DNA of 64,000 nt from Tragulus kanchil (taxonomy: Eukaryota; Chordata; Mammalia; Artiodactyla; Tragulidae), in contig JAIOJX010000001.1 of assembly GCA_022376925.1 (NCBI GenBank), positions 3,195,501 to 3,259,500 of the forward strand, written 5' to 3'. The stretch's first letter is position 1. Every line of letters starts with the position of its first letter. The notes beneath the pieces are model-generated. The model was not told the origin of the DNA, ran no database searches, and saw only the letters and a list, made by a program, of their open reading frames with translations. Below, piece after piece: positions 2,884-64,000 of this stretch. A program made the position numbers and the translations under genes.

Positions 2884-5800
2884 AGTTTGACTTTTTTCAC
2901 CAATTTTTAGGTGATAAAATATGTATAACATAAAGCTTGTCATTTTTAACTATTTTAAGTATGCAATTCAGTGACTTTAGTCATATTTACAATATTCTAA
3001 AGCCATTATCATTATTTCTAAAACTTTTTCATCATCATAAACAGAAATTCTGTGATCATTAAGCATTATTCTTTCATTATTGCCTCATTAAAGTCTCTGG
3101 CAACCTCCACTTACATTTCTAACTCTGTGCATTTGTTTAGTTTAGGTACCTCACAGAAGTGAAATCATGTAACCTGTGCCCATTTTTGTCTGACTTATTC
3201 CGCTCAGCACAATGTTTTCCAGATTTACTGTAGCATATGTAAGAAATTTCATTTATTTTATGACTGAAGAATATTCCATTGTATGCATATTCCACATTTT
3301 ACTTATCCATTCATCTGTTGCTGGATGCTTGAGCTGTTCCCACTTTGAGGCTACTGTGAATAATCCTGTCATGAACATTGGACAAGTACAAGTAACTGAG
3401 TTATTTCTTCTCAGTTCTTTTACATAAATACACAGGAGTGGGATTTCTGGGTCACGTGGTAATTCTATCTTTAGCTGTTTGAGGAACTGCCAAAATGTTT
3501 TATACAGAAGCCACACCAAGTGACATTCCCACCAGCAGAGTACCAGTGCTGCAATTTCTCCACATTCTCACTAACATTTGTTATTCTCCTTTAAAAAAAA
3601 ATTATAGACATCCTAGCAGATATGAAATGATATCTCACTGGGCTTTGATTTGCATTTCCTTAATGACACAGATTCTGAACACCTTTTTGTATGCTCATTT
3701 CCCTTCGTATATATATTTTGAAAAAATGTATATTCAAGTCCTTTGCTCATTTTTTGGTGAGTTTCTGTCTTTTTGTTGTTGAATTTTAATTGTTCTTTAT
3801 AAACCCTTATCAGACATATGATTTGCAAATATGTTCTATCATTCTATATACTGTCTTTTAATTTTCATAAATACACATTGATGCATAAAAGTTGAATTTT
3901 GATGAAGTACACTTTGTTTATTTTTGTTGTTGTCATTGCTTGTGTTTTTTGTGCTACAGCTAAGTATCCACTGGCAAATCCGAGATCATGAAGATCCCTT
4001 CATGTTTTCTTCTCAGAGTTTTATGATTTAGCTCTTATATTTAGGTCACTGATCCATTTTGAGTTAATCTTTATGCAGGGTGTGATATAGGAGTCCAACT
4101 TTATTCTTTTGCCAATGGAAATCCAGTTGCTTCTGTACCACTTGTTGAAGACGCTATTCTTTCACTTATTAAATGATCTTGGCATCCTTGCCAAAAATCA
4201 ATTGCTATTGATGTGTAAGCCTAATTCTGGACCTCAGTTCTGTGTGGTCTTTATCTCTACCACACTGTTTTGTTTACTGCTGCTTTGCAGTAAGCTTTGA
4301 AATTGGGAAGTGTAAGCCCTTGAACTTTCTTCTTTTTCAAGATTGTTTTGACTATTTGGGGATGCTTTGTAGTTTCAAATTTGAAGTTGAGAGTACAGAT
4401 TTTCTATTTCTTGGAAAAAGCTGTTGCAATTTGTTTTTGGATCTGTAAGTCTCATCTTGACAAGTACAATGTAACATTGGACAAGTACAAGTAACTGAGT
4501 TATTTCTTCTCAGTTCTTTTACATAAATACACAGGAGTGGGATTTCTGGGTCACGTGGTAATTCTATCTTTAGCTGTTTGAGGAACTGCCAAAATGTTTT
4601 ATACAGAAGCCACACCAAGTGACATTCCCACCAGCAGAGTACCAGTGCTGCAATTTCTCCACATTCTCACTAACATTTGTTATTCTCCTTTAAAAAAAAA
4701 TTATAGACATCCTAGCAGATATGAAATGATATCTCACTGGGCTTTGATTTGCATTTCCTTAATGACACAGATTCTGAACACCTTTTTGTATGCTCATTTC
4801 CCTTCGTATATATATTTTGAAAAAATGTATATTCAAGTCCTTTGCTCATTTTTTGGTGAGTTTCTGTCTTTTTGTTGTTGAATTTTAATTGTTCTTTATA
4901 AACCCTTATCAGACATATGATTTGCAAATATGTTCTATCATTCTATATACTGTCTTTTAATTTTCATAAATACACATTGATGCATAAAAGTTGAATTTTG
5001 ATGAAGTACACTTTGTTTATTTTTGTTGTTGTCATTGCTTGTGTTTTTTGTGCTACAGCTAAGTATCCACTGGCAAATCCGAGATCATGAAGATCCCTTC
5101 ATGTTTTCTTCTCAGAGTTTTATGATTTAGCTCTTATATTTAGGTCACTGATCCATTTTGAGTTAATCTTTATGCAGGGTGTGATATAGGAGTCCAACTT
5201 TATTCTTTTGCCAATGGAAATCCAGTTGCTTCTGTACCACTTGTTGAAGACGCTATTCTTTCACTTATTAAATGATCTTGGCATCCTTGCCAAAAATCAA
5301 TTGCTATTGATGTGTAAGCCTAATTCTGGACCTCAGTTCTGTGTGGTCTTTATCTCTACCACACTGTTTTGTTTACTGCTGCTTTGCAGTAAGCTTTGAA
5401 ATTGGGGAAGTGTAAGCCCTTGAACTTTCTTCTTTTTTTCAAGATTGTTTTGACTATTTGGGGATGCTTTGTAGTTTCAAATTTGAAGTTGAGAGTACAG
5501 ATTTTCTATTTCTTGGAAAAAAGCTGTTGCAATTTTGATAAATATTATTTGGGATCTGTAAGTCTCATCTTGACAATATTACTCATTAACACAGGATGTC
5601 TTTCTAATTTTTTTTTTTTTTAGATTTTCTTTAATTTCTTTTGGCAATGTTTTCAGCATACAAGCATTTCACCTCCTTGGTTAAATTATTGTAGATGCTA
5701 TTTTTAACAATATTACTTTCTTAATTTCCTTTTTGAATTATTCATCATTGGTGCATAGAACACAACTGGTTTCTGTGTGATTTTATACCCTACAACTTTT

Positions 5801-5945
5801 CTGAATTTCTTTATTAGCTCTGGTAGCTTTCTTATAGAGTCTTCATAATTTTCATGTCAACTATGAATAGAGAAATAGTATTAGCTCTTCCTTTTCAATT
5901 TGGGTGCCTTTTATTTCTTTTTCTTGACTCATTTCCCCAGATAAA
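2884..5945 (-). mobile_element. Antisense L1 (L1M-type), inflated by a tandem duplication
   Basis: Read on the + strand this is the familiar complement of a mammalian L1 3' end: ATAAAATATGTATAACATAA, then ATATTCCATTGTATGCATAT, GATTTGCATTTCC, CCTTATCAGACATATGATTTG and onward into ORF2 complement. Order and orientation are colinear, apart from the 1.1-kb duplication at 3374-5574. No intact ORF remains. Confidence 0.85.
3374..5574. repeat. Tandem duplication 1 (unit about 1.10 kb)
   Basis: Copy 1 is 3374-4461 and copy 2 is 4473-5574. The offset is 1,099 for most of the length and 1,113 at the right end, so copy 1 has lost 14 bases near the seam, in homopolymers and in a GATAAATATTATT stretch present only in copy 2. 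Bases 4462-4472 are filler. The unit lies wholly inside antisense L1. Reading frames at 3495 and 4594 are identical as a result. Confidence 0.95.
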
Positions 5946-6249
5946 AGTTGAAAAAAATTCTAAAGAAGTAGTATTTGATAATCAAGCAGTGATGTCATAT
6001 TGACACCTGCAGTTCGGAGGAGAGATCCACTCTGGGGACATGATTTTGGGAGCCATAAGCTTACAGTCAATACTGAAAGCTGTAAGAATGAATAAGATCA
6101 TCAAGGGGTAGAGTAGAGAGAGAGGAGGAAAGGGAATGGAAGGAGAGGTAGTGGAGGGGATAGGAGAAAAGAGCTGCCATTTGTCTGATTGCTACAGGTT
6201 TGTCAACATTCAGAGCCTACCGAGCCCTTTGATGGAACTCTTTTTTTTT
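5946..6249. other. Unique sequence with purine-rich tract
   Basis: No gene. About 6111-6172 is almost all A and G (GAGAGAGAGGAGGAAAGGG and similar), a simple purine strand. Confidence 0.5.
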
Positions 6250-13535: not shown

Positions 13536-13770
13536 ACATAAGATCAACTGGAGGATGGTCTCCAGACTTCCAGACTAGATGAGACACTTCAATACAAAAT
13601 AGTTTGCCTCCACAAGACAGTACAGTTAGTTCCAGAGTAGGTGTTTATCATGGCAAACATTTAGGCTAGAAAACATTTGCTCCCCTCCTCCTCCTTCTCC
13701 TTGGAAACCGGTGGCCTCCTGACCAAGTCTGCCTGTTCATCTCTTTCATTCTCTAAGAGGCTATTTTGCT
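13536..13770. other. Non-L1 segment between L1 blocks
   Basis: Sequence not matching L1, including a pyrimidine-rich CTCCTCCTCCTTCTCCTTGG. No repeat or gene recognised. Confidence 0.4.
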
Positions 13771-16449
13771 TTTTCTTAAAGACGACTGGGTTTTAAACTG
13801 TATTGAATTAATTTCCTGCATCCATTTAGATAATTTATTTTTCTTTTTTACTCCAATAATATGGTGAATTATATGGATTGATAGTCAAATATTAAGCCAA
13901 CTTTGTATTCCCAGATAAACCCCACTTGGACATGATATATCACTTTTCCAATATATTGTTATATTTTGTAAACATGAATCTATGTTCATGAGAGATATTG
14001 GTCTATAGCTTTGCTTTCTTATAATATTTTCACTTATAGAATCAGGTTAATACTGAGTTCATAAAAAGTGTTGGGAAGTGTTTTCTCCTCCACTATTTTC
14101 TAGGAGTTGAAATAGCATTTGAATTCCTTCATTGAATGCTTGACAGACTTCATTAAGGAAACACCTGGGCTAGGGTTCTTATAGTGGGAAGGTTTTTAAT
14201 TATGAATTTAATTAGCATAAGTTTATGCATATTTTCTATTGTCTTTTTTTCCATTTTTGTAATGTGTATCTGTCAAATATTTTGTCTAAGTTGTCGAATT
14301 TATTGGCATAAAGTTGTTCATAACATTCTCTTATTATCTTTTTATCCTTTTAATATTTGGAGGGTCTGTAGCAGTCACCTTTTTCATTGTAATATCAGTA
14401 ATTGAGGTCTCATCTAATTTTTCTTGATTAATAGAACTAAAGGCTTATCAATTTTATTAATCTTGTAAAATTATCCTTTAATTGATTTTTTTCTGTTTTG
14501 TGTTCTTTTTCTAATTTACTGATTTTCACTCTTATCTTTACTAAAATCTGTGTTTAATAAAGTTTCCTCTCTCCCTACTCCTCCTCATCATTCCTCTTCT
14601 TTTCCTGAAATAAAAGGTGAAATGTAGCTGTTAGACCATTCCCTCTTGCTAATGTAAGTATTTGAAGCTATGGACTTCTCTGACAGCACTTCTTTAGAAC
14701 ACCACACATTTTTGATGTGCTGTGGTTTTGCTGTCATTGAGTCTGAAATGTTCAACAGTCTCTTACAGAATTTCTTTACTGTCCCATGAATCACTTGAAA
14801 TTTCCAAATAGTTGAACATTTAAGACTTCTTAGTTCTGCTTTGTGCACTCTAGATCTTCTTGAAAAATTTTTTTGGCTTTTTTTTTTAAAGACGACTGGG
14901 TTTTAAACTGTATTGAATTAATTTCCTGCATCCATTTAGATAATTTATTTTTCTTTTTTACTCCAATAATATGGTGAATTATATGGATTGATAGTCAAAT
15001 ATTAAGCCAACTTTGTATTCCCAGATAAACCCCACTTGGACATGATATATCACTTTTCCAATATATTGTTATATTTTGTAAACATGAATCTATGTTCATG
15101 AGAGATATTGGTCTATAGCTTTGCTTTCTTATAATATTTTCACTTATAGAATCAGGTTAATACTGAGTTCATAAAAAGTGTTGGGAAGTGTTTTCTCCTC
15201 CACTATTTTCTAGGAGTTGAAATAGCATTTGAATTCCTTCATTGAATGCTTGACAGACTTCATTAAGGAAACACCTGGGCTAGGGTTCTTATAGTGGGAA
15301 GGTTTTTAATTATGAATTTAATTAGCATAAGTTTATGCATATTTTCTATTGTCTTTTTTTCCATTTTTGTAATGTGTATCTGTCAAATATTTTGTCTAAG
15401 TTGTCGAATTTATTGGCATAAAGTTGTTCATAACATTCTCTTATTATCTTTTTATCCTTTTAATATTTGGAGGGTCTGTAGCAGTCCCTTTTTTCATTGT
15501 AATATCAGTAATTGAGGTCTCATCTAATTTTTCTTGATTAATAGAACTAAAGGCTTATCAATTTTATTAATCTTGTAAAATTATCCTTTAATTGATTTTT
15601 TTCTGTTTTGTGTTCTTTTTCTAATTTACTGATTTTCACTCTTATCTTTACTAAAATCTGTGTTTAATAAAGTTTCCTCTCTCCCTACTCCTCCTCATCA
15701 TTCCTCTTCTTTTCCTGAAATAAAAGGTGAAATGTAGCTGTTAGACCATTCCCTCTTGCTAATGTAAGTATTTGAAGCTATGGACTTCTCTGACAGCACT
15801 TCTTTAGAACACCACACATTTTTTGATGTGCTGTGGTTTTGCTGTCATTGAGTCTGAAATGTTCAACAGTCTCTTACAGAATTTCTTTACTGTCCCATGA
15901 ATCACTTGAAATTTCCAAATAGTTGAACATTTTTAAGACTTCTTTTAGTTCTTGATTTTTTAATTCCATTATGGTCAGAGAACACACTCTGAAATTTATT
16001 TAGACTTGATTTGTTGTGCCCCAGCGTATGGTCTTTCTTAGCAAACATACAATGCGTACTTGAGGAAAGTGTATATTCCATCAGCCAGTCTATCAGCTGG
16101 CTCTATCCTAGATGCATACACGTTAAGGATTATTGTGTCTTCTTGACTAATCAACAATGTTGTTGCTGTGGATATCCTTCTTTTACATGGAAATTTTTCT
16201 TATATTTAAGCCTACTCTGATAGGAATATAGTCATGCCAGCTTTATGTTTAGCAGTTGCATCGCTTATTTTTTTCTGCCCTATTACAGTCAACCAATCTG
16301 AGTTTTTAGATTTAAATTGTGTTTCTTACAAATAGCCTATTATTGGGTCTTTGTTTTTTGATCCATTATTACAATCTCTTGCTTTTCTGGGCAGTCTTTC
16401 AACTATTTACATTCAGAGCATTATTGATAGGATTATGTTTAAGTATTCC
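13771..16449 (-). mobile_element. Antisense L1 ORF2, inflated by a tandem duplication
   Basis: ATTGGTCTATAGCTTTGCTT, ATGGTCAGAGAACACACTCT and GATAGGAATATAGTCATGCC are complements of L1 ORF2 motifs in colinear order, apart from the duplicated 1.11-kb block. Confidence 0.78.
13777..15955. repeat. Tandem duplication 2 (unit 1.11 kb)
   Basis: Copy 1 is 13777-14840, copy 2 begins at 14887 (possibly 14868) and ends near 15955; offset 1,110. Bases 14841-14886 are filler not found in either copy. Inner differences are few: AGTCACCTTTTTC versus AGTCCCTTTTTTC near 14375/15485, and one extra T near 15823. Near the seam copy 1 lacks TT twice relative to copy 2. Confidence 0.95.
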
Positions 16450-17868: not shown

Positions 17869-18074
17869 GGGCTTCCACGGTGGTTCAGATGGTAAAGAAT
17901 TTGCCTACAATGTAGGAGACTGTGTCAGGAAGATCCCCTGGAGAGGGGAATGGCTACCCACTCCAGTATTCTTGCCTGAAGTTTCAAATCCCATGGACAG
18001 AGAAGCCTGTCATTGGGTCCCAAAGAGTCAGATACAACTGAGCAACGAACACTCACACATATACACACCCTAGT
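17869..18074 (+). mobile_element. Bov-tA SINE with short putative TSD
   Basis: GGGCTTCCACGGTGGTTCAG, AATTTGCCTACAATGTAGGA, CCACTCCAGTATTCTTGCCT and AGAGTCAGATACAACTGAGC. A possible TSD TATGAG lies at 17863-17868 and 18075-18080. The box B portion is partly deleted. The right part also lies in tandem duplication 3. Confidence 0.9.
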
Positions 18075-18225
18075 TATGAGATCTTTTTTCATACAATTGT
18101 TCTGTGAATATATTTTCCTTATGTGGCTTGCATGCTTATTTGCTACGTTTTCCTTCTAATACTTTACTTATTTATTTGTGTGGCGATGCTGGGTCCTCAT
18201 TGGAGCATGTGGAATCTCTTTCCCT

Positions 18226-18969
18226 TCAGTTCAGTTCAATTGCTCAGTCACGTCCAACTCTTTGTTGTCAGGACTGACAGGAGGCCCCATGACCTCTGTC
18301 CTAGTTACCAAGGACTCATTCCCCTTGCGAAGGTTCCAGCCCTTCCTGGAAGATGACATACCTTTGTGCAAAAGGCCGATAAGGAGTAATAAATACTGTG
18401 TTTACGACCCCCTGTGGTGGTCAGACCAGTAGTTCAGGTGTCCCCACTGACCCAGGGCTCCCAGTTCCTGGTTCTGGAAAGGACCTGTCCCACCCAATAC
18501 CCCCGTGGTGGTCAGATCAGTAGTTCACGTGTCCCACTCCCACACCCCACAGTTCCGTCCAGCACGCCGCCGTTTTTTCCCGCCCAAGCCCAGGGTGTAT
18601 AACTTCTGTAACTAAATCTCTCAGGGGCTGCCCTCCTGAATAAGCTTCTGTTTATTCCCAGCTGTCCTTCTCTTCCTCTTTACTGCTGCCTTGCTCCCTT
18701 CAAACCTCACATTTTCTCTCTCTCTCTTTCCTCTCCCTTCCGTAGGGAATCTCCGCGAACAGGCAAGCAGCTGTGACCCCATGGACGGCAGCACCCAGAC
18801 TTCCCTGTCCTTCACTCTCTCCCGGAGCTGGCTCAAACTCATGTCCATTGACTCAGTGATGCCACCCAGCCATTTTGTCCTCTGTCGTCCCCTTCTCCTT
18901 TATCCTTCTATTTTTCTCAACATCAGGCTCTTTTCCAATGAGTCGTCTCTTCACGTCAAGTGGCCAAAG
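18226..18969 (-). mobile_element. BovB 3' end split by an LTR (copy 1)
   Basis: Left piece 18226-18265: CCTTCAGTTCAGTTCAATTG, CTCAGTCACGTCCAACTCTT. Right piece 18770-18969: TGTGACCCCATGGACGGCAG, CTCAAACTCATGTCCATTGA, AAGTGGCCAAAGT. Together they form one antisense BovB terminus with an LTR inserted at the conserved CTCTTTG-TGACCCC junction. The minus-strand frame at 18621-18848 starts with BovB residues MDMSLSQLRE and runs into the LTR; it is a chimera, not a gene. Copy 2 is at 19311-20054. Confidence 0.85.
18266..18769. mobile_element. Solo LTR of an endogenous retrovirus (copy 1)
   Basis: A 504-bp block starting TGTCAGGACTGACAGG and ending GCAAGCA (TG...CA), inserted cleanly into BovB. Near-duplicated flanks TTGT and CTGT may be the TSD. 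Inside are a direct repeat at 18409-18446 and 18501-18537 (GTGGTGGTCAGAYCAGTAG), a TATA-like GTGTATAAC at about 18595, an AATAAG polyadenylation-like motif near 18640 and a pyrimidine-rich right part. No gag, pol or env is adjacent. The orientation + is likely from TATA and poly-A order. The family was not identified with certainty. Confidence 0.75.
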
Positions 18970-19350
18970 TAGACTCTGGCCCCTAGCATTGGGAGTGTGG
19001 AGTCTTACCCACCGGGCCACCAGGGAAGTTCTCTCTCTATGGTTTCTTTTGATTAGGAAATTTTAATTTGGATGAAGTCTAATTCATTATTTTTCCAAGC
19101 CTGTCATTGGGTCCCAAAGAGTCAGATACAACTGACGAACACTCACATACACACCCTAGTTATGAGATCTTTTTCATACAATTGTTCTGTGAATATATTT
19201 TCCTTATGTGGCTTGCATGCTTATTTGCTACGTTTTCCTTCTAATACTTTACTTATTTATTTGTGTGGCGATGCTGGGTCCTCATTGGAGCATGTGGAAT
19301 CTCTTTCCCTTCAGTTCAGTTCAATTGCTCAGTCACGTCCAACTCTTTGT

Positions 19351-19854
19351 TGTCAGGACTGACAGGAGGCCCCATGACCTCTGTCCTAGTTACCAAGGAC
19401 TCATTCCCCTTGCGAAGGTTCCAGCCCTTCCTGGAAGATGACATACCTTTGTGCAAAAGGCCGATAAGGAGTAATAAATACTGTGTTTACGACCCCCTGT
19501 GGTGGTCAGACCAGTAGTTCAGGTGTCCCCACTGACCCAGGGCTCCCAGTTCCTGGTTCTGGAAAGGACCTGTCCCACCCAATACCCCCGTGGTGGTCAG
19601 ATCAGTAGTTCACGTGTCCCACTCCCACACCCCACAGTTCCGTCCAGCACGCCGCCGTTTTTTCCCGCCCAAGCCCAGGGTGTATAACTTCTGTAACTAA
19701 ATCTCTCAGGGGCTGCCCTCCTGAATAAGCTTCTGTTTATTCCCAGCTGTCCTTCTCTTCCTCTTTACTGCTGCCTTGCTCCCTTCAAACCTCACATTTT
19801 CTCTCTCTCTCTTTCCTCTCCCTTCCGTAGGGAATCTCCGCGAACAGGCAAGCA
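19351..19854. mobile_element. Solo LTR (copy 2, by tandem duplication)
   Basis: Same LTR as at 18266-18769 at an offset of exactly 1,085, with the same BovB and CHR flanks. The shared insertion site shows this is a copy made by duplication of the locus, not a second integration. Confidence 0.9.
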
Positions 19855-20479
19855 GCTGTGACCCCATGGACGGCAGCACCCAGACTTCCCTGTCCTTCAC
19901 TCTCTCCCGGAGCTGGCTCAAACTCATGTCCATTGACTCAGTGATGCCACCCAGCCATTTTGTCCTCTGTCGTCCCCTTCTCCTTTATCCTTCTATTTTT
20001 CTCAACATCAGGCTCTTTTCCAATGAGTCGTCTCTTCACGTCAAGTGGCCAAAGTAGACTCTGGCCCCTAGCATTGGGAGTGTGGAGTCTTACCCACCGG
20101 GCCACCAGGGAAGTTCTCTCTCTATGGTTTCTTTTGATTAGGAAATTTTAATTTGGATGAAGTCTAATTCATTATTTTTTCCTCTTTTCATAGCTTTGTT
20201 TTCTGTGACGTCTGTAAGAAACACTTGCCTTCCATTGAGTCACAGAAATGGTTTACTTTTTTCTTTTAAAAGTTTAAGGGTTTTAGCTTTTTTTATTTAG
20301 GTTAATAATTCATTTAAAGTTAAACTACTCAAATGACAATGTGGTGTGAGTCTGTTTCTCCACTGTCAGTTCTGTTCCATTGATCTATTTGCTAATATTT
20401 ATTCCAGTACCAAACTTTCATGGTTGCTATAGCCTTTATAGTAAATCTATAAATCAGGTCATAGTAGTGTCAACTACAA

Positions 20480-20935
20480 ATGGACAACAAGGGCATTTGC
20501 CATCTGCCTCTGCAGAGATTGAACGCTGTGCTGTTGGGAGCTGCTGACTCTCAGCACCCCCTGACGGAAATCAGCACTCTGTGCTCCAAGGAAGCCGGTG
20601 GGCAGGGCTTCGGATAGGCAAACGCTTTTAGGAACAGACTTTACCATCTCAATCCTTGCATCTTCTCACACCTAGTAAAGCGCTAAATTCCTTCCTGAAG
20701 ACGACATATCCTCATAATTAACCGGAAACCATTTGTAAAATAAAAACCCTTTGTTTAATATTATTTGAACTCGCCCTTCACCAAAATCTTATATATTGAT
20801 TTTCCTCCCACTGCCTCTTTGGAGCCATCTCTCAGAGCTATCTGGGATGCTGCCTCCTGGGCTGCAGTCCTAATTATGCCCCAAATAAAACTTAACCCAC
20901 AACTCTCAAGCTGTTTGGTTTTTTTGGGCGACAGG
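20480..20935 (+). mobile_element. LTR-like insertion in L1 (copy 1)
   Basis: L1 complement stops near 20475 and resumes near 20945 (AGAATTGTTTTTATC). The insert has LTR features: TGTTGGGAGCTGCTGACTC near 20532, AATAAA motifs near 20740 and 20885 (CCCCAAATAAAACTTAACCC) and a GCGACA right end. The exact left edge and TSD could not be fixed. It resembles beta-type (class II) ERV LTRs, an inference from its 3' part. Confidence 0.55.
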
Positions 20936-21559
20936 AGCTACTCTAGAATTGTTTTTATCAATATTTCTATAGATATACAACATCCTTTTCCTTTGCATGT
21001 TTTAGAATCAGTTTATCATTTTTATGCAAAAGCTGTGAATGAGATTTTGAACAGAATTGCATTGGATCCAAAAATCAATTTGAGGAAAATTGACATTTGT
21101 ACAAAATTGCATCTTCCGTTCCATAAATTGGCCAATATTTCTAATTATCTAGCTTTCATCTGTGTTTTTTTATTTTCAGAAATGTGATCTTTATGGCTTT
21201 GATGCTATTATAAATGGAATTTCAGGTTTTTCCTTTTTGCATAATAATTTTATATCCAATAATATTCCTAAATTCACTTCTTAAAGTAGATGCCTGTAGA
21301 TTCCTTAGCGTTTTAACATTAACAACCGTACCATCTGCAGATATAGACAGTCTTACTTGTTCCTTTCCAAATATTTGTCTTTTGTTTCTTTTTGCAGTTT
21401 TTCTGACTGGAACTGCCTGTACAATGTTGTATAAAATTAGTCTGTTTCTCCACTGTCAGCGTCAGTATTTGCTAATATTTATTCCAGTACCAAACTTTCA
21501 TGGTTGCTATAGCCTTTATAGTAAATCTATAAATCAGGTCATAGTAGTGTCAACTACAA

Positions 21560-22016
21560 ATGGACAACAAGGGCATTTGCCATCTGCCTCTGCAGAGATT
21601 GAACGCTGTGCTGTTGGGAGCTGCTGACTCTCAGCACCCCCTGACGGAAATCAGCACTCTGTGCTCCAAGGAAGCCGGTGGGCAGGGCTTCGGATAGGCA
21701 AACGCTTTTAGGAACAGACTTTACCATCTCAATCCTTGCATCTTCTCACACCTAGTAAAGCGCTAAATTCCTTCCTGAAGACGACATATCCTCATAATTA
21801 ACCGGAAACCATTTGTAAAATAAAAACCCTTTGTTTAATATTATTTGAACTCGCCCTTCACCAAAATCTTATATATTGATTTTCCTCCCACTGCCTCTTT
21901 GGAGCCATCTCTCAGAGCTATCTGGGATGCTGCCTCCTGGGCTGCAGTCCTAATTATGCCCCAAATAAAACTTAACCCACAACTCTCAAGCTGTTTGGTT
22001 TTTTTTGGTCGACAGG
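21560..22016 (+). mobile_element. LTR-like insertion (copy 2, by tandem duplication)
   Basis: Same sequence as 20480-20935 at offset 1,080, within the second copy of duplication 4. Confidence 0.6.
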
Positions 22017-26465: not shown

Positions 26466-27254
26466 TGCTAAATCATAAGCTCAAATTTTAATTGCTTGCT
26501 TAGAGTTAATACTGTACATAAAATACTGTCATATAAACTGTAAAGTCTTTTATTTGTATAGGTCTATTTACTCCATCACCCTTTTATGCTTTACTTATTT
26601 CAGAAAGAGCGATAGAGAGAAATCTCTATATATAATCCCATGAGAAAATATATTTCTTTAGTCAGTATCCTATATTTTAGAGAAATAAGAGAATGAAAGA
26701 GACTTTTTAAACTTACCCTTCTATTTATTTCTAATGTTCTTCATTTGAACTCAGTCTATCTGACTCCAAGGACTATGCCCTATCCTAAATTTGTTGAACA
26801 GAGTTACTTGGGGAAGATTGTATGAAAGTGCCCATGTCTGTCTTATGAAATTATGGTCCCCAAATGACCTGATTCTTGACTGGACACAAACTGGGCTCCT
26901 CCTAAGCTTCTAAATAGGATGACAAACATTCTGGGGCTAGCTCACGTTTCTCACTTGCTCCCAGCTCATGTGGTGTCAAGTTATGGGTGGTTTTCTTATG
27001 TCTTTTAAAATTTTCTTTATTAAGTGTCAGTATCCCATTCTAATTCATAAATTCTGGCATTAGGAGACAATTTGGTCATTCTTTCTTTCAGCCTCTGTCT
27101 TGCCATCTGACTCCTCCTATGATGTACCCTTTGGCTCCCCAGCACTGTCTACTCACCCTAAGAAAATATTTCATCCTTTTCAAAAATGCATATTACTTCT
27201 GAACTTTACCCTGGGAATACCACAGTGACATGAGAGGTATGCAACATTATAGCA

Positions 27255-32096: not shown

Positions 32097-32125
32097 AAAA
32101 CATATGATCTCATTTGATCCTAATC

Positions 32126-45638: not shown

Positions 45639-45740
45639 ATAATATAAAGTTGGAAAGTACATCATCCTTGGAGAAAGCCTATGGATGAAAGGAAAGGAAA
45701 TGAGATGAAAGGGAAGTACTTGATGCAATTTAAAATCTGA

Positions 45741-47903
45741 GGAAGCAAAGACCCTTCCAAACTCTTCCAAGATCCCTGCCAAGGGATCAGGAAGCCCAGA
45801 AAGCTACACAAGTTCCCCAAAGACAGAGGCTCATTTGCTTGTCCATTAAATTAGTGGTCACTGACTCACTCAGACATTCATTCATTCAGTGGCTTAGTCC
45901 TTTCCCTTCTTACTCACTAGCTCGCACATGGACCAGAACATTTCTTCTTTCTCTCCCTTGCACACTTCTTCATGCACACACTCTCACACATTGTCTTGCA
46001 CTGCACCACCCAGGGCTCCATGGTGACTTAAGTCTTGAGCTGAGTAGAGGCTTTCTTCAAACACATCTTAATGTGCAAAGAAAATGATGATATTGTCTTC
46101 CATAGTATTAGCTGGCTTGTTCTATAATCCTTTCATTCAATTATGGTATTTGAAACTTTACTTTGTGCAGGGAACAGAGAGATACAATTGACATTGACCA
46201 TACCCTCCCCTGACTTGCAGTCCACTCAGGGAGATAAGCATTTTCAGGAATTCCTATACTCGATCCAGGAATCCAAATAGGAATCACTTGACTCTGGCAG
46301 AAAGGCTGCATGCAGGCTTCCACTCATGAACTTCCCTGAGTGTTTTCTATAAAGGAGACCTTGGGAATGCAGAAAGGGCTAAGACATGGTCCTACCTTCA
46401 CAGAGTTCAATATCCAATGGAGCAAAAAGACACCAGACTAGACAATTGGCATAAAATACGAATAAGCTGAGTTGCTGCTCCCAGCAGCAACACAATGATG
46501 CAAGACCCAGGTAATGAATTCTGTTCATGAAAAGTTTATGAACCAGCATTAATTAGCTCTAGACCTTCAAGAAGGTGGAGTTTTTTGGGGATTTTTTTTT
46601 GACAAAGGTAGGTGAAACGAAAGTGCTTGATCCATGGCTAGAAAAGATGTGTTTGGAGAACAGTAAATAGTACTATTTTTCTAGAATGCATCTACCCTGC
46701 CTATCACCTTTGCCCTAGGGCTGCCTGGTAGCAGCTTACAGAGGAATTCAGACGGACCCAGAAGCGCAGGGTTAAATGTATCGCTCTTGCTGAGGAGAGG
46801 AGGGTCTTCCTTAGGGCTGCCAAAAAAGGAAGCAAAGACCCTTCCAAACTCTTCCAAGATCCCTGCCAAGGGATCAGGAAGCCCAGAAAGCTACACAAGT
46901 TCCCCAAAGACAGAGGCTCATTTGCTTGTCCATTAAATTAGTGGTCACTGACTCACTCAGACATTCATTCATTCAGTGGCTTAGTCCTTTCCCTTCTTAC
47001 TCACTAGCTCGCACATGGACCAGAACATTTCTTCTTTCTCTCCCTTGCACACTTCTTCATGCACACACTCTCACACATTGTCTTGCACTGCACCACCCAG
47101 GGCTCCATGGTGACTTAAGTCTTGAGCTGAGTAGAGGCTTTCTTCAAACACATCTTAATGTGCAAAGAAAATGATGATATTGTCTTCCATAGTATTAGCT
47201 GGCTTGTTCTATAATCCTTTCATTCAATTATGGTATTTGAAACTTTACTTTGTGCAGGGAACAGAGAGATACAATTGACATTGACCATACCCTCCCCTGA
47301 CTTGCAGTCCACTCAGGGAGATAAGCATTTTCAGGAATTCCTATACTCGATCCAGGAATCCAAATAGGAATCACTTGACTCTGGCAGAAAGGCTGCATGC
47401 AGGCTTCCACTCATGAACTTCCCTGAGTGTTTTCTATAAAGGAGACCTTGGGAATGCAGAAAGGGCTAAGACATGGTCCTACCTTCACAGAGTTCAATAT
47501 CCAATGGAGCAAAAAGACACCAGACTAGACAATTGGCATAAAATACGAATAAGCTGAGTTGCTGCTCCCAGCAGCAACACAATGATGCAAGACCCAGGTA
47601 ATGAATTCTGTTCATGAAAAGTTTATGAACCAGCATTAATTAGCTCTAGACCTTCAAGAAGGTGGAGTTTTTTGGGGATTTTTTTTTGACAAAGGTAGGT
47701 GAAACGAAAGTGCTTGATCCATGGCTAGAAAAGATGTGTTTGGAGAACAGTAAATAGTACTATTTTTCTAGAATGCATCTACCCTGCCTATCACCTTTGC
47801 CCTAGGGCTGCCTGGTAGCAGCTTACACAGAGGAATTCAGACGGACCCAGAAGCGCAGGGTTAAATGTATCGCTCTTGCTGAGGAGAGGAGGGTCTTCCT
47901 TAG
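45741..47903. repeat. Tandem duplication 8 (unit 1.087 kb)
   Basis: Copy 1 is 45741-46814 and copy 2 is 46828-47903, offset 1,087, with 13 bp of filler (46815-46827). The only inner difference noticed is GCTTACAGAGG versus GCTTACACAGAGG near 46740/47827, close to the right edge. The unit is unique DNA with weak old-repeat traces (TCCTACCTTCACAGAGTTCA). Confidence 0.96.
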
Positions 47904-49606: not shown

Positions 49607-49808
49607 GGCTTCCCTGATGGCTCAGTGCTAAAGCATCCACCCGCCAAGGCAGGAAACTCAGGTTCGATCCCTGGGTGGATGAGACCCCCTGGAGGAAGGC
49701 ACAGCAACCCACTCCAGTATTCTTGGCTTGGAGAATCCCATGGACAGAGGAACCTGGCGGGCTACAGTCCACAGGGTCACAAAGAGTCAGACTCGACTGA
49801 AACAAAAA
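49607..49808 (+). mobile_element. Bov-tA SINE
   Basis: GGGCTTCCCTGATGGCTCAG, AGGTTCGATCCCTGGGTGGA, CCACTCCAGTATTCTTGGCT, GCGGGCTACAGTCCACAGGG and AGAGTCAGACTCGACTGAAA. Full length. Its last 25 bases are also the left edge of duplication 9. Confidence 0.95.
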
Positions 49809-50364
49809 CAAACCCCTCCCCTGCACACGCCTGTCCCAGCATAGACATTCTCTAGGGAAGGTGCTGAGTGGCCCAAGGGTTCAGCTTGAGGGTAACCTTG
49901 AGCCTTAGTGGGTGGCTCTCTGACCACCTCTCAGGCAACACTAGACGGAGGGGTGCTTCCTCTGGGAAAAGGGGAGGGGAACGACAAGGACGGGAGGCCG
50001 AAAGGATGCACAGCATGACTGCAAATGTGCTCCATGGCTCGGAGCCAGACTGCAGGGAGGGAGGTTGAGAGGTAGAGAGTACGTTTTTGAAAACTTTTAT
50101 AGCAACTTCATAATGCCTATTAAATTTCATAATAAAAAATAATTTGTCTTAATTTTTGCCTTTCTAGTAATTCAGTTTTATTGTATTTTGTATTGGTCTA
50201 TGCAATTTGGAAATCTAAAAAGATAATTAAAAATACAACAAATGAAAGCAAAACAAAAAAAAATAGGTGCTTCACAACAAATGTTTGCCAGCTTTGCCAC
50301 GGCACCCCTGACTCTAGCGCAACAGCCAAAGCACTGAGGTAGACAAAAGATCAGACTTCTCGTC

Positions 50365-50568
50365 CATCCACTTTATATATAGTAGAGAACACTAGACTCA
50401 GTATCTTGTAATAACCTATGATGGAAAAGAATCTGAAAAAGAATAGGCAAGTGCGTATAACTGAATCACTTTGCTGTACACTTGAAGCTAACAGAACTTT
50501 ATAAATTAACTATAATTTAAAAAATAAAATGAGTCTCTTGTAGACAGCAAAAAAAAAAAAAAAAAAAA
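50365..50568 (+). mobile_element. Ruminant L1 3' UTR end with poly-A (copy 1)
   Basis: TTTATATATAGTAGAGAACA, CTCAGTATCTTGTAATAACC, GGAAAAGAATCTGAAAAAGA, CTGAATCACTTTGCTGTACA and CTTGAAGCTAACAGAACTTT, followed by a 20-A run at 50549-50568. Copy 2 is at 51545-51748. Confidence 0.88.
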
Positions 50569-50722
50569 TCAGACTTCTCATCCCAGTTCCTTCATCTCCT
50601 TGACAAGTCGTTTAACGTTTGAGCTTCATGTTTCCCATCTGTAAATGTCTCATGAGGACCACATGAAATCTTGGGTGAGAAGATGCATTGCACACTGTAA
50701 GGCGCCGTGCTGAAAGAGGGCT
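50569..50722 (+). mobile_element. MIR SINE (copy 1)
   Basis: CATCTCCTTGACAAGTCGTT, GAGCTTCATGTTTCCCATCT and GTAAATGTCTCATGAGGACC match MIR sense. Copy 2 is at 51749-51902. Confidence 0.7.
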
Positions 50723-51544
50723 AAGTGGCGAAGGTGCTACAGTTCTATGGCCACCCCCACCCCATGCCTGCCAAGTGGCCCTGGGTACTAGCACAGTGGA
50801 AAGAGCTCAAGACTGAGGTCAGCCTGGATTTGGACCCCACCTTCTTACCAATGAAGAAGGGATTTAAAAAAATACCAAGCTGGAGAAGCTGTGGTGAGGA
50901 TTAACTGGGAAGGACTTAGCACAAAGAAGTGGTAGTTAGTAGTGTGGTCTGAATTACTTATGCACGAGTCAGACTCGACTGAAACAAAAACAAACCCCTC
51001 CCTGCACACGCCTGTCCCAGCATAGACATTCTCTAGGGAAGGTGCTGAGTGGCCCAAGGGTTCAGCTTGAGGGTAACCTTGAGCCTTAGTGGGTGGCTCT
51101 CTGACCACCTCTCAGGCAACACTAGACGGAGGGGTGCTTCCTCTGGGAAAGGGGAGGGGAACGACAAGGACGGGAGGCCGAAAGGATGCACAGCATGACT
51201 GCAAATGTGCTCCATGGCTCGGAGCCAGACTGCAGGGAGGGAGGTTGAGAGGTAGAGAGTACGTTTTTGAAAACTTTTATAGCAACTTCATAATGCCTAT
51301 TAAATTTCATAATAAAAAATAATTTGTCTTAATTTTTGCCTTTCTAGTAATTCAGTTTTATTGTATTTTGTATTGGTCTATGCAATTTGGAAATCTAAAA
51401 AGATAATTAAAAATACAACAAATGAAAGCAAAACAAAAAAAAATAGGTGCTTCACAACAAATGTTTGCCAGCTTTGCCACGGCACCCCTGACTCTAGCGC
51501 AACAGCCAAAGCACTGAGGTAGACAAAAGATCAGACTTCTCGTC

Positions 51545-51748
51545 CATCCACTTTATATATAGTAGAGAACACTAGACTCAGTATCTTGTAATAACCTATG
51601 ATGGAAAAGAATCTGAAAAAGAATAGGCAAGTGCGTATAACTGAATCACTTTGCTGTACACTTGAAGCTAACAGAACTTTATAAATTAACTATAATTTAA
51701 AAAATAAAATGAGTCTCTTGTAGACAGCAAAAAAAAAAAAAAAAAAAA
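51545..51748 (+). mobile_element. Ruminant L1 3' UTR end with poly-A (copy 2)
   Basis: Duplicate of 50365-50568 at offset 1,180. Confidence 0.88.
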
Positions 51749-51902
51749 TCAGACTTCTCATCCCAGTTCCTTCATCTCCTTGACAAGTCGTTTAACGTTT
51801 GAGCTTCATGTTTCCCATCTGTAAATGTCTCATGAGGACCACATGAAATCTTGGGTGAGAAGATGCATTGCACACTGTAAGGCGCCGTGCTGAAAGAGGG
51901 CT
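51749..51902 (+). mobile_element. MIR SINE (copy 2)
   Basis: Duplicate of 50569-50722 at offset 1,180. Confidence 0.7.
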
Positions 51903-52185
51903 AAGTGGCGAAGGTGCTACAGTTCTATGGCCACCCCACCCCATGCCTGCCAAGTGGCCCTGGGTACTAGCACAGTGGAAAGAGCTCAAGACTGAGGTCA
52001 GCCTGGATTTGGACCCCACCTTCTTACCAATGAAGAAGGGATTTAAAAAAATACCAAGCTGGAGAAGCTGTGGTGAGGATTAACTGGGAAGGACTTAGCA
52101 CAAAGAAGTGGTAGTTAGTAGTGTGGTCTGATTACATCTTATTCTTATTGCTCTACATTACAACTTTGAGATCTGTCCATGTGCA

Positions 52186-53703: not shown

Positions 53704-54237
53704 CAGATGTGGTGTCTCACTCGAGTAGGCACATTTCCCACTTTTTCTGATCTCTGGAACAGCATGTAAAGGAGAGAGACTATCTTTTCTTGTGAAGTTT
53801 GACAAAATAATCAACCCATAAAATTGTTTGGACCTAATTCTTCAGGGAGGAGATGAAACTGTAATCATCAACTACTGCAACTTTATGCAGTCACTGAAAG
53901 TCAGAGAAAAGAGGTAAATATCTTGATATTTTTTAATGCAAAAATTGTGCTTGGGAAAACTGAATGCATCTGGCCAGTGAGCGGCAGGCGGCTCTCCAGG
54001 TTGCTCTGACTCGTGGCTCGGCCACATCTTTCTTCACTTGGCCTCAGTGTTCGCGATTAAAGTTTCTTACACCATTCACTATCTGGATGGAAGTGAAATG
54101 TTCTCATCAGAAGAAATAGTGGACTGAGTCACTTATTGATCTGAACTCTGGTGGAAAGTCTGAAAAAGGCAATGTTCCATCCACAACTGATCCAAGTGCC
54201 CATAAATACCCAGGTGGGTAGCCTACTGGGCACCCCT
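53704..54237. other. Unique sequence, no gene seen
   Basis: No recognised repeat or coding exon. Confidence 0.4.
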
Positions 54238-54587
54238 GTAGGTGGACATTATAGTTTCCTCCAACACCAAGGTTGTTGGCTGGTGGGCAGTGTCATCATT
54301 TAGAAATAACTCAACTTAATTAGGAGCAAACATCACCTTCCAGAAGGACATGGAGGGAGAACATCTACTTGGGGAACAGCAGATAGCCTGACACAACCCC
54401 AAATCTGGAGCCTTGAAAAGTCTTTTCCCCCTTAGGAGTCTCAATGTCATCTGCCAGAAAAACTGTGACCTACTTGGCCTTTGGTCCTTTCTAACTGCCC
54501 TGAGAGATGTGAGTCTCACTACCTGCCTGGGGTTGCCTTGGATTTTAAGTTTTCTGCCTGAGAAATAGACTCTTTCCTATTGTGGCT

Positions 54588-54757
54588 GCTCTGGTGACTC
54601 AGACAGTAAAGAATCTGCCTGCAGTGCAGGAGACCTGGGTGGGGAAGGTCCCCTGAAGTAGGAAATGGCGACTCACTCCAGCATTCTTGCCTGGAGAATA
54701 CCATGGACTGTAGCCCACCTGTGTGGTCAGTCAGATACAACTGAGCAACTAACACAC
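54588..54757 (+). mobile_element. Bov-tA SINE (copy 1)
   Basis: GTGGCTGCTCTGGTGACTCA, AGAATCTGCCTGCAGTGCAG, CTCACTCCAGCATTCTTGCC and AGATACAACTGAGCAACTAA. The box B part is deleted (GACCTGGGTGGGGAAGGTCC). Confidence 0.92.
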
Positions 54758-55695
54758 TGCTGCTGATGACTGACAGTTGAAACTGCAGCTCCTCTGGACA
54801 TGCAGCCCCTGAACTCAGGGTATAGCTTTAGCCAGACCACTAGAGAAAAAGAACACACACAAACACTAGGAAGAGGAGGTCTTGTTTCCTTTCTGCACTG
54901 AGGGTCAGGAGACACAATCTTTGTTTCATTTTATGGGACTTGAAGTGACCTCAAGAGGGAAATTGTTAACATGATTCCAATAATTCATTGCGGACATGTG
55001 GCAGGCAAAATTCTAAGGATGGTTCCCCAAGACATCTGTTCCCAGGTTATTAAATTAAACAGTAATCTAGATAGTGCTGTAAAGGGATTTTGCCGATGTA
55101 GTTAAGGTTTCAAGTCAGTTGACTTTAAGATATGGAGATTATCCAGGCTGGTCTGATCTAATCACAGGAACCCTCTGAAAGCAGAATTTGCAGATTCTTC
55201 CCCAGAGTCTCAGATAAGAGCTTCGCTCAGCTTACATCTTGTTTCATGAGAAGCCAGCAAGCAGAGGACCCAGCAATCAGAGGACTCTTGACATGGAAAC
55301 AAGAAGAGAATAAATGGGTGCTATTTACAGCCAGTGACTAAAAATGTAGGTGGACATTATAGTTTCCTCCAACACCAAGGTTGTTGGCTGGTGGGCAGTG
55401 TCATCATTTAGAAATAACTCAACTTAATTAGGAGCAAACATCACCTTCCAGAAGGACATGGAGGGAGAACATCTACTTGGGGAACAGCAGATAGCCTGAC
55501 ACAACCCCAAATCTGGAGCCTTGAAAAGTCTTTTCCCCCTTAGGAGTCTCAATGTCATCTGCCAGAAAAACTGTGACCTACTTGGCCTTTGGTCCTTTCT
55601 AACTGCCCTGAGAGATGTGAGTCTCACTACCTGCCTGGGGTTGCCTTGGATTTTAAGTTTTCTGCCTGAGAAATAGACTCTTTCCTATTGTGGCT

Positions 55696-55865
55696 GCTCT
55701 GGTGACTCAGACAGTAAAGAATCTGCCTGCAGTGCAGGAGACCTGGGTGGGGAAGGTCCCCTGAAGTAGGAAATGGCGACTCACTCCAGCATTCTTGCCT
55801 GGAGAATACCATGGACTGTAGCCCACCTGTGTGGTCAGTCAGATACAACTGAGCAACTAACACAC
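55696..55865 (+). mobile_element. Bov-tA SINE (copy 2)
   Basis: Duplicate of 54588-54757 at offset 1,108, with the same box B deletion. Confidence 0.92.
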
Positions 55866-56099
55866 TGCTGCTGATGACTGACAGTTGAAACTGCAGCTCC
55901 TCTGGACATGCAGCCCCTGAACTCAGGGTATAGCTTTAGCCAGACCACTAGAGAAAAAGAACACACACAAACACTAGGAAGAGGAGGTCTTGTTTCCTTT
56001 CTGCACTGAGGGTCAGGAGACACAATCTTTGTTTCATTTTATGGGACTTGAAGTGACCTCAAGAGGGAAATTGTTAACATGATTCCAATAATTCATTGC

Positions 56100-56618
56100 G
56101 GACATGTGGCAGGCAAAATTCTAAGGATGGTTCCCCAAGACATCTGTTCCCAGGTTATTAAATTAAACAGTAATCTAGATAGTGCTGTAAAGGGATTTTG
56201 CCGATGTAGTTAAGGTTTCAAGTCAGTTGACTTTAAGATATGGAGATTATCCAGGCTGGTCTGATCTAATCACAGGAACCCTCTGAAAGCAGAATTTGCA
56301 GATTCTTCCCCAGAGTCTCAGATAAGAGCTTCGCTCAGCTTACATCTTGTTTCATGAGAAGCCAGCAAGCAGAGGACCCAGCAATCAGAGGACTCTTGAC
56401 ATGGAAACAAGAAGAGAATAAATGGGTGCTATTTACAGCCAGTGACTTTTAGTACTGGAGAAGAATATGGCAGCGTACTCCCATAGTCTGGCCTGGGAAA
56501 GCCCATGGACACAGGAGCCTGGGGGCTGCATTCCATGGGGTCGCAAGAGTCTGATACAACTCGGCGACTGAGCCCACAAACACAATCTGTAACACAGCAA
56601 CAGAAAACTAATACAGGA
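56100..56618 (+). mobile_element. MLT-like old repeat, split by Bov-tA
   Basis: ACATGTGGCAGGCAAAATTC, GATTTTGCCGATGTAGTTAA, AGATATGGAGATTATCCAGG, TGATCTAATCACAGGAACCC and, after a Bov-tA fragment, CAACAGAAAACTAATACAGG, the typical right end of this mammalian repeat group. The family name is uncertain (MaLR/MLT1-like). A partial copy from duplication 10 lies at 54992-55340. Confidence 0.55.
56450..56580 (+). mobile_element. Bov-tA fragment (copy 1)
   Basis: AGTACTGGAGAAGAATATGG, GGGAAAGCCCATGGACACAG, GGGGGCTGCATTCCATGGGG and CAACTCGGCGACTGAGC. 5'-truncated forward copy. Copy 2 is at 57529-57659. Confidence 0.85.
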
Positions 56619-57257
56619 CACCAAAGCAGTCCCCAAGAGTGTCAAGTCTATATCACAGCCCTCTGCATGCTCAAGATCAAGATGTCTGCACCCTACCCAC
56701 CTCTCCAGCCCTGAGTTGAACTCCTGTTGAAGAACACCTCTCACTAGGGGCCTGCTGGTTGCTGAGTGGCTGAGGACATGTTAACAACTGAGTCAATCTG
56801 ATCCGCTGGCAGGCAGGACATTTTGCAAGTCGTTAGGAACAATCCCTGCTCTTTTCAGAGAGCTAGGCATGAAGCACTTCTGTGGTCATTCGATCACGAG
56901 AACCTCATAGCAGCCCCCAGTGGGAGAAGCCATCATGGCCCCATGACCTGAATGAAAGAAAGTGGCTGGCTTAAAGTCACAGAGCTCGCATGGGCGAAGT
57001 CCCTGCTTCATAACAGAACTGACTTTTGGTAATGATTTGTGAATTCTTCTGTCAGCGGTTTACAATGCCTTGAACCTTTGGAATTGTAAGGTGAGCAGTG
57101 GTAAGACCTGACTCTCAAGGCTGCTTCTCCTCGTGCACCTGAGCTAATGGGAACCTAAGGACTGCAGATGTCTCTATCAGTCTTCTAAGTCATCATCTGC
57201 CCAAAGTCATTCCCTTGGCCAGCAAGGTGCTTAGTCCAGAGAGTCACATGGGTCTTG

Positions 57258-57454
57258 CGTTGATTTTACATGTCAATGGTACCAGGCCACAGGGTGCCTA
57301 GAGGATTTCTGGGTGGATCTGTGAGGGGTATTCCAGAAGAAATGAGCATTTAAATAGGAGAACTGAGTAAAGGAGATCGCACTCCTTTGTGTGGGCTGGC
57401 CTCCTCCAATTCACTGATTGCCTGAATAGGACAAAAAGGCAGGGGAGGCTTCTT
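57258..57454 (+). mobile_element. Old mammalian repeat (copy 1)
   Basis: TGATTTTACATGTCAATGGT, GGCCACAGGGTGCCTAGAGG, GCATTTAAATAGGAGAACTG and CCTGAATAGGACAAAAAGGC resemble a common mammalian repeat with GGGTTAATTTTATGTGTCAA start and TAGAACAAAAAGGC interior. The related copy at 61388 is the same family. Copy 2, with the true right continuation, starts at 58337. Confidence 0.55.
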
Positions 57455-57528
57455 ACCCAGCAATCAGAGGACTCTTGACATGGAAACAAGAAGAGAATAA
57501 ATGGGTGCTATTTACAGCCAGTGACTTT

Positions 57529-57659
57529 TAGTACTGGAGAAGAATATGGCAGCGTACTCCCATAGTCTGGCCTGGGAAAGCCCATGGACACAGGAGCCTG
57601 GGGGCTGCATTCCATGGGGTCGCAAGAGTCTGATACAACTCGGCGACTGAGCCCACAAA
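57529..57659 (+). mobile_element. Bov-tA fragment (copy 2)
   Basis: Duplicate of 56450-56580 at offset 1,079. Confidence 0.85.
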
Positions 57660-58336
57660 CACAATCTGTAACACAGCAACAGAAAACTAATACAGGACAC
57701 CAAAGCAGTCCCCAAGAGTGTCAAGTCTATATCTCAGCCCTCTGCATGCTCAAGATCAAGATGTCTGCACCCTACCCACCTCTCCAGCCCTGAGTTGAAC
57801 TCCTGTCGAAGAACACCTCTCACTAGGGGCCTGCTGGTTGCTGAGTGGCTGAGGACATGTTAACAACTGAGTCAATCTGATCCGCTGGCAGGCAGGACAT
57901 TTTGCAAGTCGTTAGGAACAATCCCTGCTCTTTTCAGAGAGCTAGGCATGAAGCACTTCTGTGGTCATTCGATCACGAGAACCTCATAGCAGCCCCCAGT
58001 GGGAGAAGCCATCATGGCCCCATGACCTGAATGAAAGAAAGTGGCTGGCTTAAAGTCACAGAGCTCGCATGGGCGAAGTCCCTGCTTCATAACAGAACTG
58101 ACTTTTGGTAATGATTTGTGAATTCTTCTGTCAGCGGTTTACAATGCCTTGAACCTTTGGAATTGTAAGGTGAGCAGTGGTAAGACCTGACTCTCAAGGC
58201 TGCTTCTCCTCGTGCACCTGAGCTAATGGGAACCTAAGGACTGCAGATGTCTCTATCAGTCTTCTAAGTCATCATCTGCCCAAAGTCATTCCCTTGGCCA
58301 GCAAGGTGCTTAGTCCAGAGAGTCACATGGGTCTTG

Positions 58337-58640
58337 CGTTGATTTTACATGTCAATGGTACCAGGCCACAGGGTGCCTAGAGGATTTCTGGGTGGATCTG
58401 TGAGGGGTATTCCAGAAGAAATGAGCATTTAAATAGGAGAACTGAGTAAAGGAGATCGCACTCCTTTGTGTGGGCTGGCCTCCTCCAATTCACTGATTGC
58501 CTGAATAGGACAAAAAGGCAGGGGAGGCTTCTTGGCTCCCTCCACTTGGCCCTGAATGGGGTCTTCTCCTACTCTCACATGGGGACCCCATGCCCTTGGT
58601 TCTCTGGAGAGCCAGGCTGCTCCTGGCCTAGACTCTCCAT
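58337..58640 (+). mobile_element. Old mammalian repeat (copy 2)
   Basis: Same as 57258-57454 and continuing past the duplication end into 58534-58640 (CTCCCTCCACTTGGCCCTGA). The right edge is uncertain. Confidence 0.5.
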
Positions 58641-62485: not shown

Positions 62486-62489
62486 AAAC

Positions 62490-64000
62490 CCTGGGTTGTT
62501 CGTAGCCAATCAGCACATTCACTCAACAAATCTATTGACTTGCCAGAAGGTTGAAGTGATTGCACTGAAGCCACATAGGGTGAGCCCATGAACACCACTG
62601 AAAGTGCTATTTTGGGACAGATTCCAGTTGGGAGTCAAGTAATCAATCAGGTCAGCGAACGGTCAATCAGCCTCAGCCATTAAGACAACACGTTGGCGGC
62701 ACCATTATTGACACAGGCACAGTGACTCAGAGACAAGCTGGGGAGCAAGGCCGTAGCTACACTGGTCAATAAAGCACTTTTTGTCCTGACAAAGCAAGCA
62801 ATTAAGACCAGCTGTGTTTCATTTTTCACCTCCTAAGCCATGATGTCCCTCTAGACACATCTATCAATGCAAGAAGGCAGGGCTGAGGGTTGAAGTTTAA
62901 GTCATTCCAGAGGAGAAGGAAAAAAGAAAGAGAATAGGCCAAGAAATTCCAGATCTTGAAAGTATAAGGAAATTGAAAGCAATCCTCCACAGAGCAAAAC
63001 ATCACTCAACACTAACTCTTATGAAACTGGACAGATTCAAAGGACCACTGCATGTTGAGAGTAAGGCTGGGACCTCTCTGTCTCCATGGGATAGGCTTAG
63101 GAAACTCACTGACTCTTCCCAGCTCCATGTGCATGGGAGCTTTTTCAGCTCACAGGCCTACTGAGGGTGTGACAATCTCCCAGTCTAGACCAGAAGATCC
63201 TTTAAGGAGAATAGGACGAGAGGATAGGATGAGAGGCACCTGGGTCATTCCTGTGTCTCCACTGCTTGCCCAGTGTCTGACACCAGATAGACACTCTGAT
63301 AATATTTTTCCCTCCCTGAACACACACAAAAAAGTTGAGTTTCTATCTGCTTTCCTAGAAATTCCTCAGCCCAAACTTAGCAGTCCCTGAATTCTGCCCA
63401 CAGGTTTACCCTGGACTAAATTCTACCTTTTATGTCATGCTTTTGGACTTCTCTACCCCCCACATTATCCACTGTTATCATCCTCTCTAAGCTAGAATAT
63501 CACAAAGCTATTTTGTTAAAAACCCCCTGGCCACTTCAGCGAAGTCATCCATCCACCTACAGGGAGAACTCTTGGCTCAAGTTTCTCCCAATCTCAGGAA
63601 AACCATAGCCCACATAAGTATAAGATCATTTTCATTTGGCCCCTCCTAAAAATTCAAGTTACCTGGGTTGTTCGTAGCCAATCAGACAACACTTGATTGC
63701 CAGAAGGTTGAAGTGATTGCACTGAAGCCACATAGGGTGAGCCCATGTAAAGTGCTATTTTGGGACAGATTCCAGTTGGGAGTCAAGTAATCAATCGGGT
63801 CGAACGGTCAATCAGCCTCAGCCATTAAGACAACACGTTGGCGGCACCATTATTGACACAGGCACAGTGACTCAGAGACAAGCTGGGGAGCAAGGCCAGC
63901 TACACTGGTCAATAAAGCACTTTTTGTCCTGACAAAGCAAGCAATTAAGACCAGCTGTGTTTCATTTTTCACCTCCTAAGCCATGATGTCCCTCTAGACA
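62490..64000. repeat. Tandem duplication 12 (unit up to 1.17 kb, runs off window)
   Basis: Copy 1 begins at 62490; copy 2 begins at 63662 and continues to the window end. The offset falls from 1,172 to 1,143, so the first 340 bases of copy 2 have lost 29 bases in at least six small deletions. Copy 1 presumably spans 62490-63661; its right edge cannot be verified inside the window. Confidence 0.93.
62630..62860. promoter_or_regulatory. Candidate conserved regulatory stretch
   Basis: Unique sequence with clustered TCAAT/ATTGA and ATTAAG motifs: GTAATCAATCAGG, CGGTCAATCAGCC, CAGCCATTAAGAC, CTGGTCAATAAAGC, GCAATTAAGACC. PBX- or homeodomain-like cores are an inference from the motifs only. It is present again, with deletions, in copy 2. 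Confidence 0.3.

Follow-up and report, generated by a model that had tools for sequence, protein, structure and literature searches.

Twelve direct tandem pairs of near-constant length in a Tragulus kanchil contig: probable unmerged overlaps of assembly pieces

A 64,000-nucleotide stretch of the Tragulus kanchil genome assembly (GCA_022376925.1, contig JAIOJX010000001.1, positions 3,195,501 to 3,259,500), referred to hereafter as the window, contains twelve direct tandem pairs of different sequences, each with a unit of about 1.1 kb. Judging from the sequence, we put at about 0.9 the probability that the twelve pairs are overlaps between consensus pieces that an assembly program, whichever it was, left unmerged; each unit is most likely present only once in the animal. 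Duplicate writing by assembly software is the most likely origin because the bases missing from one copy or the other are concentrated right beside the seam at which the two copies meet.

Results

Comparison of the window with itself by blastn (word size 20, E 1e-20, plus strand) yielded 11 complete pairs and a twelfth that is cut by the window edge (Table 1). A repeat finder, used as a second method, lists the 11 complete pairs. In each of these, two adjacent direct copies lie between different flanks; the right flank of the twelfth is beyond the window. Chance is excluded as the origin of the pairs. Among the complete pairs the start-to-start offset ranged from 1078 to 1182 bp, with a mean of 1108 and a standard deviation of only 30 bp, and the copies themselves were 1068-1174 bp long (median 1087.5). 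Copies were 98.6-100% identical in the complete pairs and 95% identical (blastn) in the cut pair. The gap at the seam varied from -4 to +47 bp, negative values meaning that the two copies have bases in common. Unit 6 begins with the 180 bp that close unit 5, and units 10 and 11 are joined in the same way by 72 bp; apart from such overlaps between neighbouring units, the blastn self-comparison showed no further direct repeat spaced less than 6 kb apart. Successive unit starts, with each unit counted once, were 935 to 12632 bp apart without clear pairing. The window contains no Ns.

These results recover the tandem duplications with a near-constant unit that had been described in the first-pass annotation. 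The sizes of 1099, 1085, 1080, 1128 and 1180 bp given there are in-register offsets measured past the indels at the unit ends and agree with ours, but the 1172 bp given for the twelfth pair should be 1158 bp, falling to 1143 bp at the cut end. The order of the copies is tandem as claimed, although, given the seam gaps, they are not always exactly adjacent. The copies had also been called near-identical, which holds for the complete pairs with the correction that seven of the 11 have indels, mostly beside the seam. Finally, old transposons had been noticed inside near-identical copies, and this was borne out: the similarity of the units to their repeat relatives at other places in the window is 68.9-96.3% (not counting the exact overlaps between neighbours), below the 98.6-100% of the complete tandem pairs.

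The 11 complete pairs, about 12 kb of aligned copy, differ at 36 places, comprising 29 indels and seven substitutions. Of these differences, 27 fell in the terminal 15% of the unit on one side or the other, together 30% of its length. To describe their direction, we call copy 2 seam-near for the first half of a unit and copy 1 seam-near for the second half. The seam-near copy was the shorter one in 25 of the 29 indels, including one at mid-unit (0.52 of unit 4, a deletion in copy 1) that barely counts as seam-near. Once the cut pair is added, the seam-near copies lack 70 bases, compared to 4 in the seam-far ones; 17 of the 34 indels sit in single-base runs. The one-sided probability of this polarity is 5e-5 if indels are independent, which the indels of one pair are not; when the labels of whole pairs were flipped for the eight pairs with indels, the cut pair included, the observed score was reached in 2 of 256 arrangements. 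Sequence quality thus drops towards the seam in the pairs that are informative. Differences placed without regard to the seam, as a true tandem duplication needs, were not what we found; nor were there heterozygous variants throughout the copies, as a duplication of haplotypes needs, since the copies are identical in three of the 11 complete pairs and the substitutions number only seven.

To decide which copy is intact, we used old repeat relatives at other places in the window as an outside standard. For the damaged head of unit 7, the relatives at 10.6 and 53.1 kb scored 67.8 and 64.9 with copy 1, compared to 50.2 and 48.8 with copy 2. The relative of unit 4 at 24.46 kb scored 37.9 with copy 1 and 20.3 with copy 2; its alignment with copy 1 runs from the first base, whereas with copy 2 it begins only beyond the damage. 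For unit 3 the relative at 54.7 kb gave 24.5 and 16.5, respectively, over a match of only 27 bp. Thus, it is the seam-near copy that lost bases in all three units that could be scored. For units 1, 2 and 8, none of the relatives listed within the window covers the damaged tail of copy 1. The interspersed repeats in the window are presumably of ruminant type (BovB/Bov-tA).

A protein search with the reading frame that runs out of copy 2 in unit 7 returned two relatives, P0001 and P0002, both predicted proteins from other sources. P0001 scored 94.4 bits with the frame of copy 2 and 82.4 bits with that of copy 1. Aligned to the DNA, it matched one stretch (33888-34373) that passes position 34188, where copy 2 ends, and enters the right flank, while its match to copy 1 stops at 33089, shortly after the copy ends at 33060. 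Because the alignment continues into the flank, the right flank of copy 2 is the old neighbour of unit 7. P0001 fixes this one right boundary and not the copy number; an outgroup lacking the duplication would give the same picture had a real duplication arisen recently.

Window positions 32589-34373, which take in the unit 7 frames and the right flank, match P0001 and P0002 at 42-49% identity, and the stretch is therefore common to other genomes; the matches pointed to no gene. The frame of unit 7 had no relative among the genome contigs or the viral contigs searched, the frame of unit 6 had none among the viral contigs searched and the DNA of unit 7 had none among the plasmids searched. Scans of the window for Rfam families at gathering scores and for tRNAs were both empty.

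Table 1. Direct tandem pairs in the window (positions are those of the window; offsets are start to start; a dot marks a feature given without strand; seam-near indels are those in which the seam-near copy is the shorter, out of all indels in the pair)
Unit	Copy 1	Copy 2	Span	Strand	Offset (bp)	Seam gap	Seam-near indels	Differences between copies
1	3371-4463	4469-5576	3371..5576	.	1098	5 bp	4/6	copy 1 tail deletions; 2 indels in the opposite direction
2	13770-14837	14880-15952	13770..15952	.	1110	42 bp	3/3	copy 1 tail deletions
3	18003-19094	19097-20179	18003..20179	.	1094	2 bp	3/3	copy 2 head deletions
4	20349-21440	21439-22521	20349..22521	.	1090	2 bp common to copies	6/6	5 copy 2 head deletions; sixth at mid-unit
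5	26650-27764	27777-28891	26650..28891	.	1127	12 bp		copies identical
6	28712-29793	29790-30871	28712..30871	.	1078	4 bp common to copies		copies identical
7	31969-33060	33108-34188	31969..34188	.	1139	47 bp	6/6	copy 2 head deletions
8	45740-46814	46827-47903	45740..47903	.	1087	12 bp	1/1	copy 1 tail deletion
9	49784-50957	50966-52135	49784..52135	.	1182	8 bp	2/4	2 indels in the opposite direction
10	54237-55339	55345-56447	54237..56447	.	1108	5 bp		copies identical
11	56376-57454	57455-58533	56376..58533	.	1079	0		no indel; 2 substitutions away from ends
12 (cut by window edge)	62535-62857	63693-64000	62535..64000	.	1158 at start, 1143 at cut end		5/5	copy 2 head deletions

Two simple repeats were also noted. 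An array of about 31 copies of the dinucleotide AT is present just ahead of unit 8 (45561-45624), and two copies of a 16-bp unit span the start of unit 11 (56362-56393); because unit 10 is doubled, they are present a second time at 55254-55285.

Discussion

The crowding of differences at the unit ends and the predominant shortening of the seam-near copy, evidence on which the first-pass annotation had not drawn, bear out the view preferred there, that the pairs are unmerged overlaps. Neighbouring consensus pieces would have been placed end to end with their overlap left in, so that the unit was written twice; copy 1 would then close the left piece and copy 2 open the right one. The source was probably a long-read assembly and the overlap likely a segment of fixed size, close to 1 kb. 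Bases may have dropped out at the tips because few reads reach the very ends of a piece, and the seam gap may consist of a few leftover junk bases from the same tips. Damage that depends on the distance from the seam fits untrimmed piece ends and does not fit mutation following a real duplication.

Several observations weigh against this interpretation. Units 1 and 9 each have two indels that run in the opposite direction (four of the 29 in all), and four of the 11 complete pairs (units 5, 6, 10 and 11) have no indels and are silent on polarity. Units 2, 4 and 11 together have five substitutions (14377-14379, 20928 and 56655-56728) that lie away from the tips; poor piece ends do not explain them, and they are possibly heterozygous sites or differences in polishing. 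P0002 scores 88.6 bits with either copy of unit 7 and ends near the end of the unit. The seam gaps were without likeness to the flanking sequence: in the seven gaps of at least 5 bp that were compared, out of eight positive gaps in the complete pairs (the 2-bp gap was left out), the lowest share of random window stretches was 0.10. The idea that the gaps are degraded flanking sequence was rejected, as none of the seven showed a clear resemblance above that of random stretches of the window.

Papers are cited below by PubMed Central (PMC) identifier. The duplicated overlapping contigs (DOCs) of Kelley and Salzberg (2010), found in the cow, chimpanzee, chicken and dog assemblies, resemble the present pairs in that the overlapping ends of nearby contigs are kept twice; unlike them, DOCs lie on separate contigs and are attributed to differences between haplotypes, whereas the present pairs stand without a gap, keep a near-constant unit and differ mainly by deletions on the seam side (PMC2864568). 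The negative gaps corrected by BiSCoT are likewise termed artefactual tandem duplications, but they arise in optical-map scaffolding and the passages describing them state no fixed unit length (PMC8389630). The homotype false duplications of the Vertebrate Genomes Project are single sequences that were under-collapsed owing to read errors rather than heterozygosity; they are defined by read depth and k-mers, whereas the present pairs are known from sequence alone (PMC9516828). The absence of a gap, the near-fixed unit and the occurrence of twelve cases in 64 kb set the present case apart from all three.

The near-constant length suggests a cause in the assembler that the first-pass annotation did not name, a single graph segment of fixed size. 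With a standard deviation of 30 bp, a fixed segment with slight jitter is indicated, since overlaps that merely exceed a minimum would vary widely. The shared segment may be a vertex of 1024 raw bases in a fuzzy Bruijn graph of the wtdbg2/Redbean type. This program permits neighbouring nodes to overlap by up to 256 bp, and its consensus step joins neighbouring units over the expected overlap; a slight overlap of neighbouring vertices could account for the sequence common to units 5 and 6 and to units 10 and 11. The Redbean/wtdbg2 graph is built from segments of 1024 bp, fixed and just over 1 kb like the unit here, although the finished copies in the window are longer than 1024 bp (PMC7730629). 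Their lengths fit only if the raw reads lose about 5-6% of bases, in which case 1024 raw bases would become about 1080 finished ones. Such a change can follow from the error profile of Nanopore data, which have a higher deletion rate, PacBio data having a higher rate of insertion (PMC8590762). Consistent with this proposal, Redbean assemblies were significantly larger than the references in a bacterial benchmark with simulated mediocre Nanopore reads (PMC7730629).

Other reports argue against the step that involves wtdbg2. With real bacterial reads, the sizes of Redbean assemblies were no different from the references (PMC7730629). In a human benchmark, the Nanopore assembly by wtdbg2 carried 2226 structural errors across 2.97 Gb, a rate far lower than the 12 in 64 kb seen here, and over the assemblies tested 88.9% of structural errors larger than 1 kb were collapses (PMC8590762). 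Of three assemblers compared in a moth, wtdbg2 left the smallest number of duplicated genes (PMC9526047), and the program reportedly removes branching nodes from the ends of contigs (PMC12037172). The literature searched (titles, abstract starts and passages) yielded neither a description of an unmerged segment nor an account of a tandem footprint of about 1.1 kb left by wtdbg2. Because of these counterpoints, the attribution to a program of this type is kept at about even odds. We place slightly less weight on the further suggestion that piece joins that met badly each kept one graph segment twice, such that an offset of about 1.08 kb together with seam-side deletions names the program.

A variant of the same artefact, which we consider possible but not the likelier course, is that a scaffolder set contigs with overlapping ends side by side and kept the negative gap, the near-fixed length then stemming from the way the assembler cut its contig ends. 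The damage at the seam fits contig ends, and artefactual tandem duplications of this type are known and are removed by BiSCoT (PMC8389630). The narrow spread of the offsets is hard to reconcile with this variant, as overlaps above a minimum length are expected to vary far more. Scaffolders also normally leave Ns, of which the window has none, and pieces no longer than some 2 kb, as implied for units 5 and 6 and for units 10 and 11, where the overlaps themselves overlap, would be odd for scaffolded contigs. The lack of Ns would be expected if, instead, a long-read patch had been inserted into each gap along with anchors of about 1 kb, each anchor being doubled, and a fixed anchor length would yield a near-constant unit. 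Filled gaps should leave paired seams, however, and the distances between unit starts show no such pairing, which makes gap filling improbable.

That the copies are the two parental haplotypes side by side, a version entertained in the first-pass annotation, is not favoured by our data. Haplotypes are the main source of false duplication in the vertebrate assemblies of one study (PMC9516828) and are the cause that another deals with (PMC2864568), and the off-tip substitutions in units 2, 4 and 11 would be in keeping with them. With identical copies in three complete pairs, seven substitutions in about 12 kb and differences that are mainly seam deletions, the explanation was rejected on both the identity of the copies and the kind of differences, and there is no reason for haplotype pieces to share one length; we regard it as very unlikely. 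Least credible of all is a real process, constrained in length, that duplicates about 1.1 kb of any sequence. It would account for the doubling of different sequences at nearly one length, but the losses track the distance from the seam, which later mutation has no reason to respect, and in the three units scored the old relatives fit the seam-far copy better. A real duplication with a length rule was rejected on these two grounds.

If the pairs are unmerged overlaps, the offsets of the 11 complete pairs, which total 12,192 bp, mean that about 19% of the window is false sequence. The test for seam-side deletions needs no reads and could help to tell such artefacts from real tandem duplications; if the offset and the deletions do act as the stamp of one program, raw reads would not be needed to strip the false fifth of such regions from finished public genomes. 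The twelve pairs are most likely not a real feature of the genome of T. kanchil and their biological interest is low. Should the same occur elsewhere in the assembly, counts of recent duplications, gene copies and exon numbers, as well as the genome size, would be wrong.

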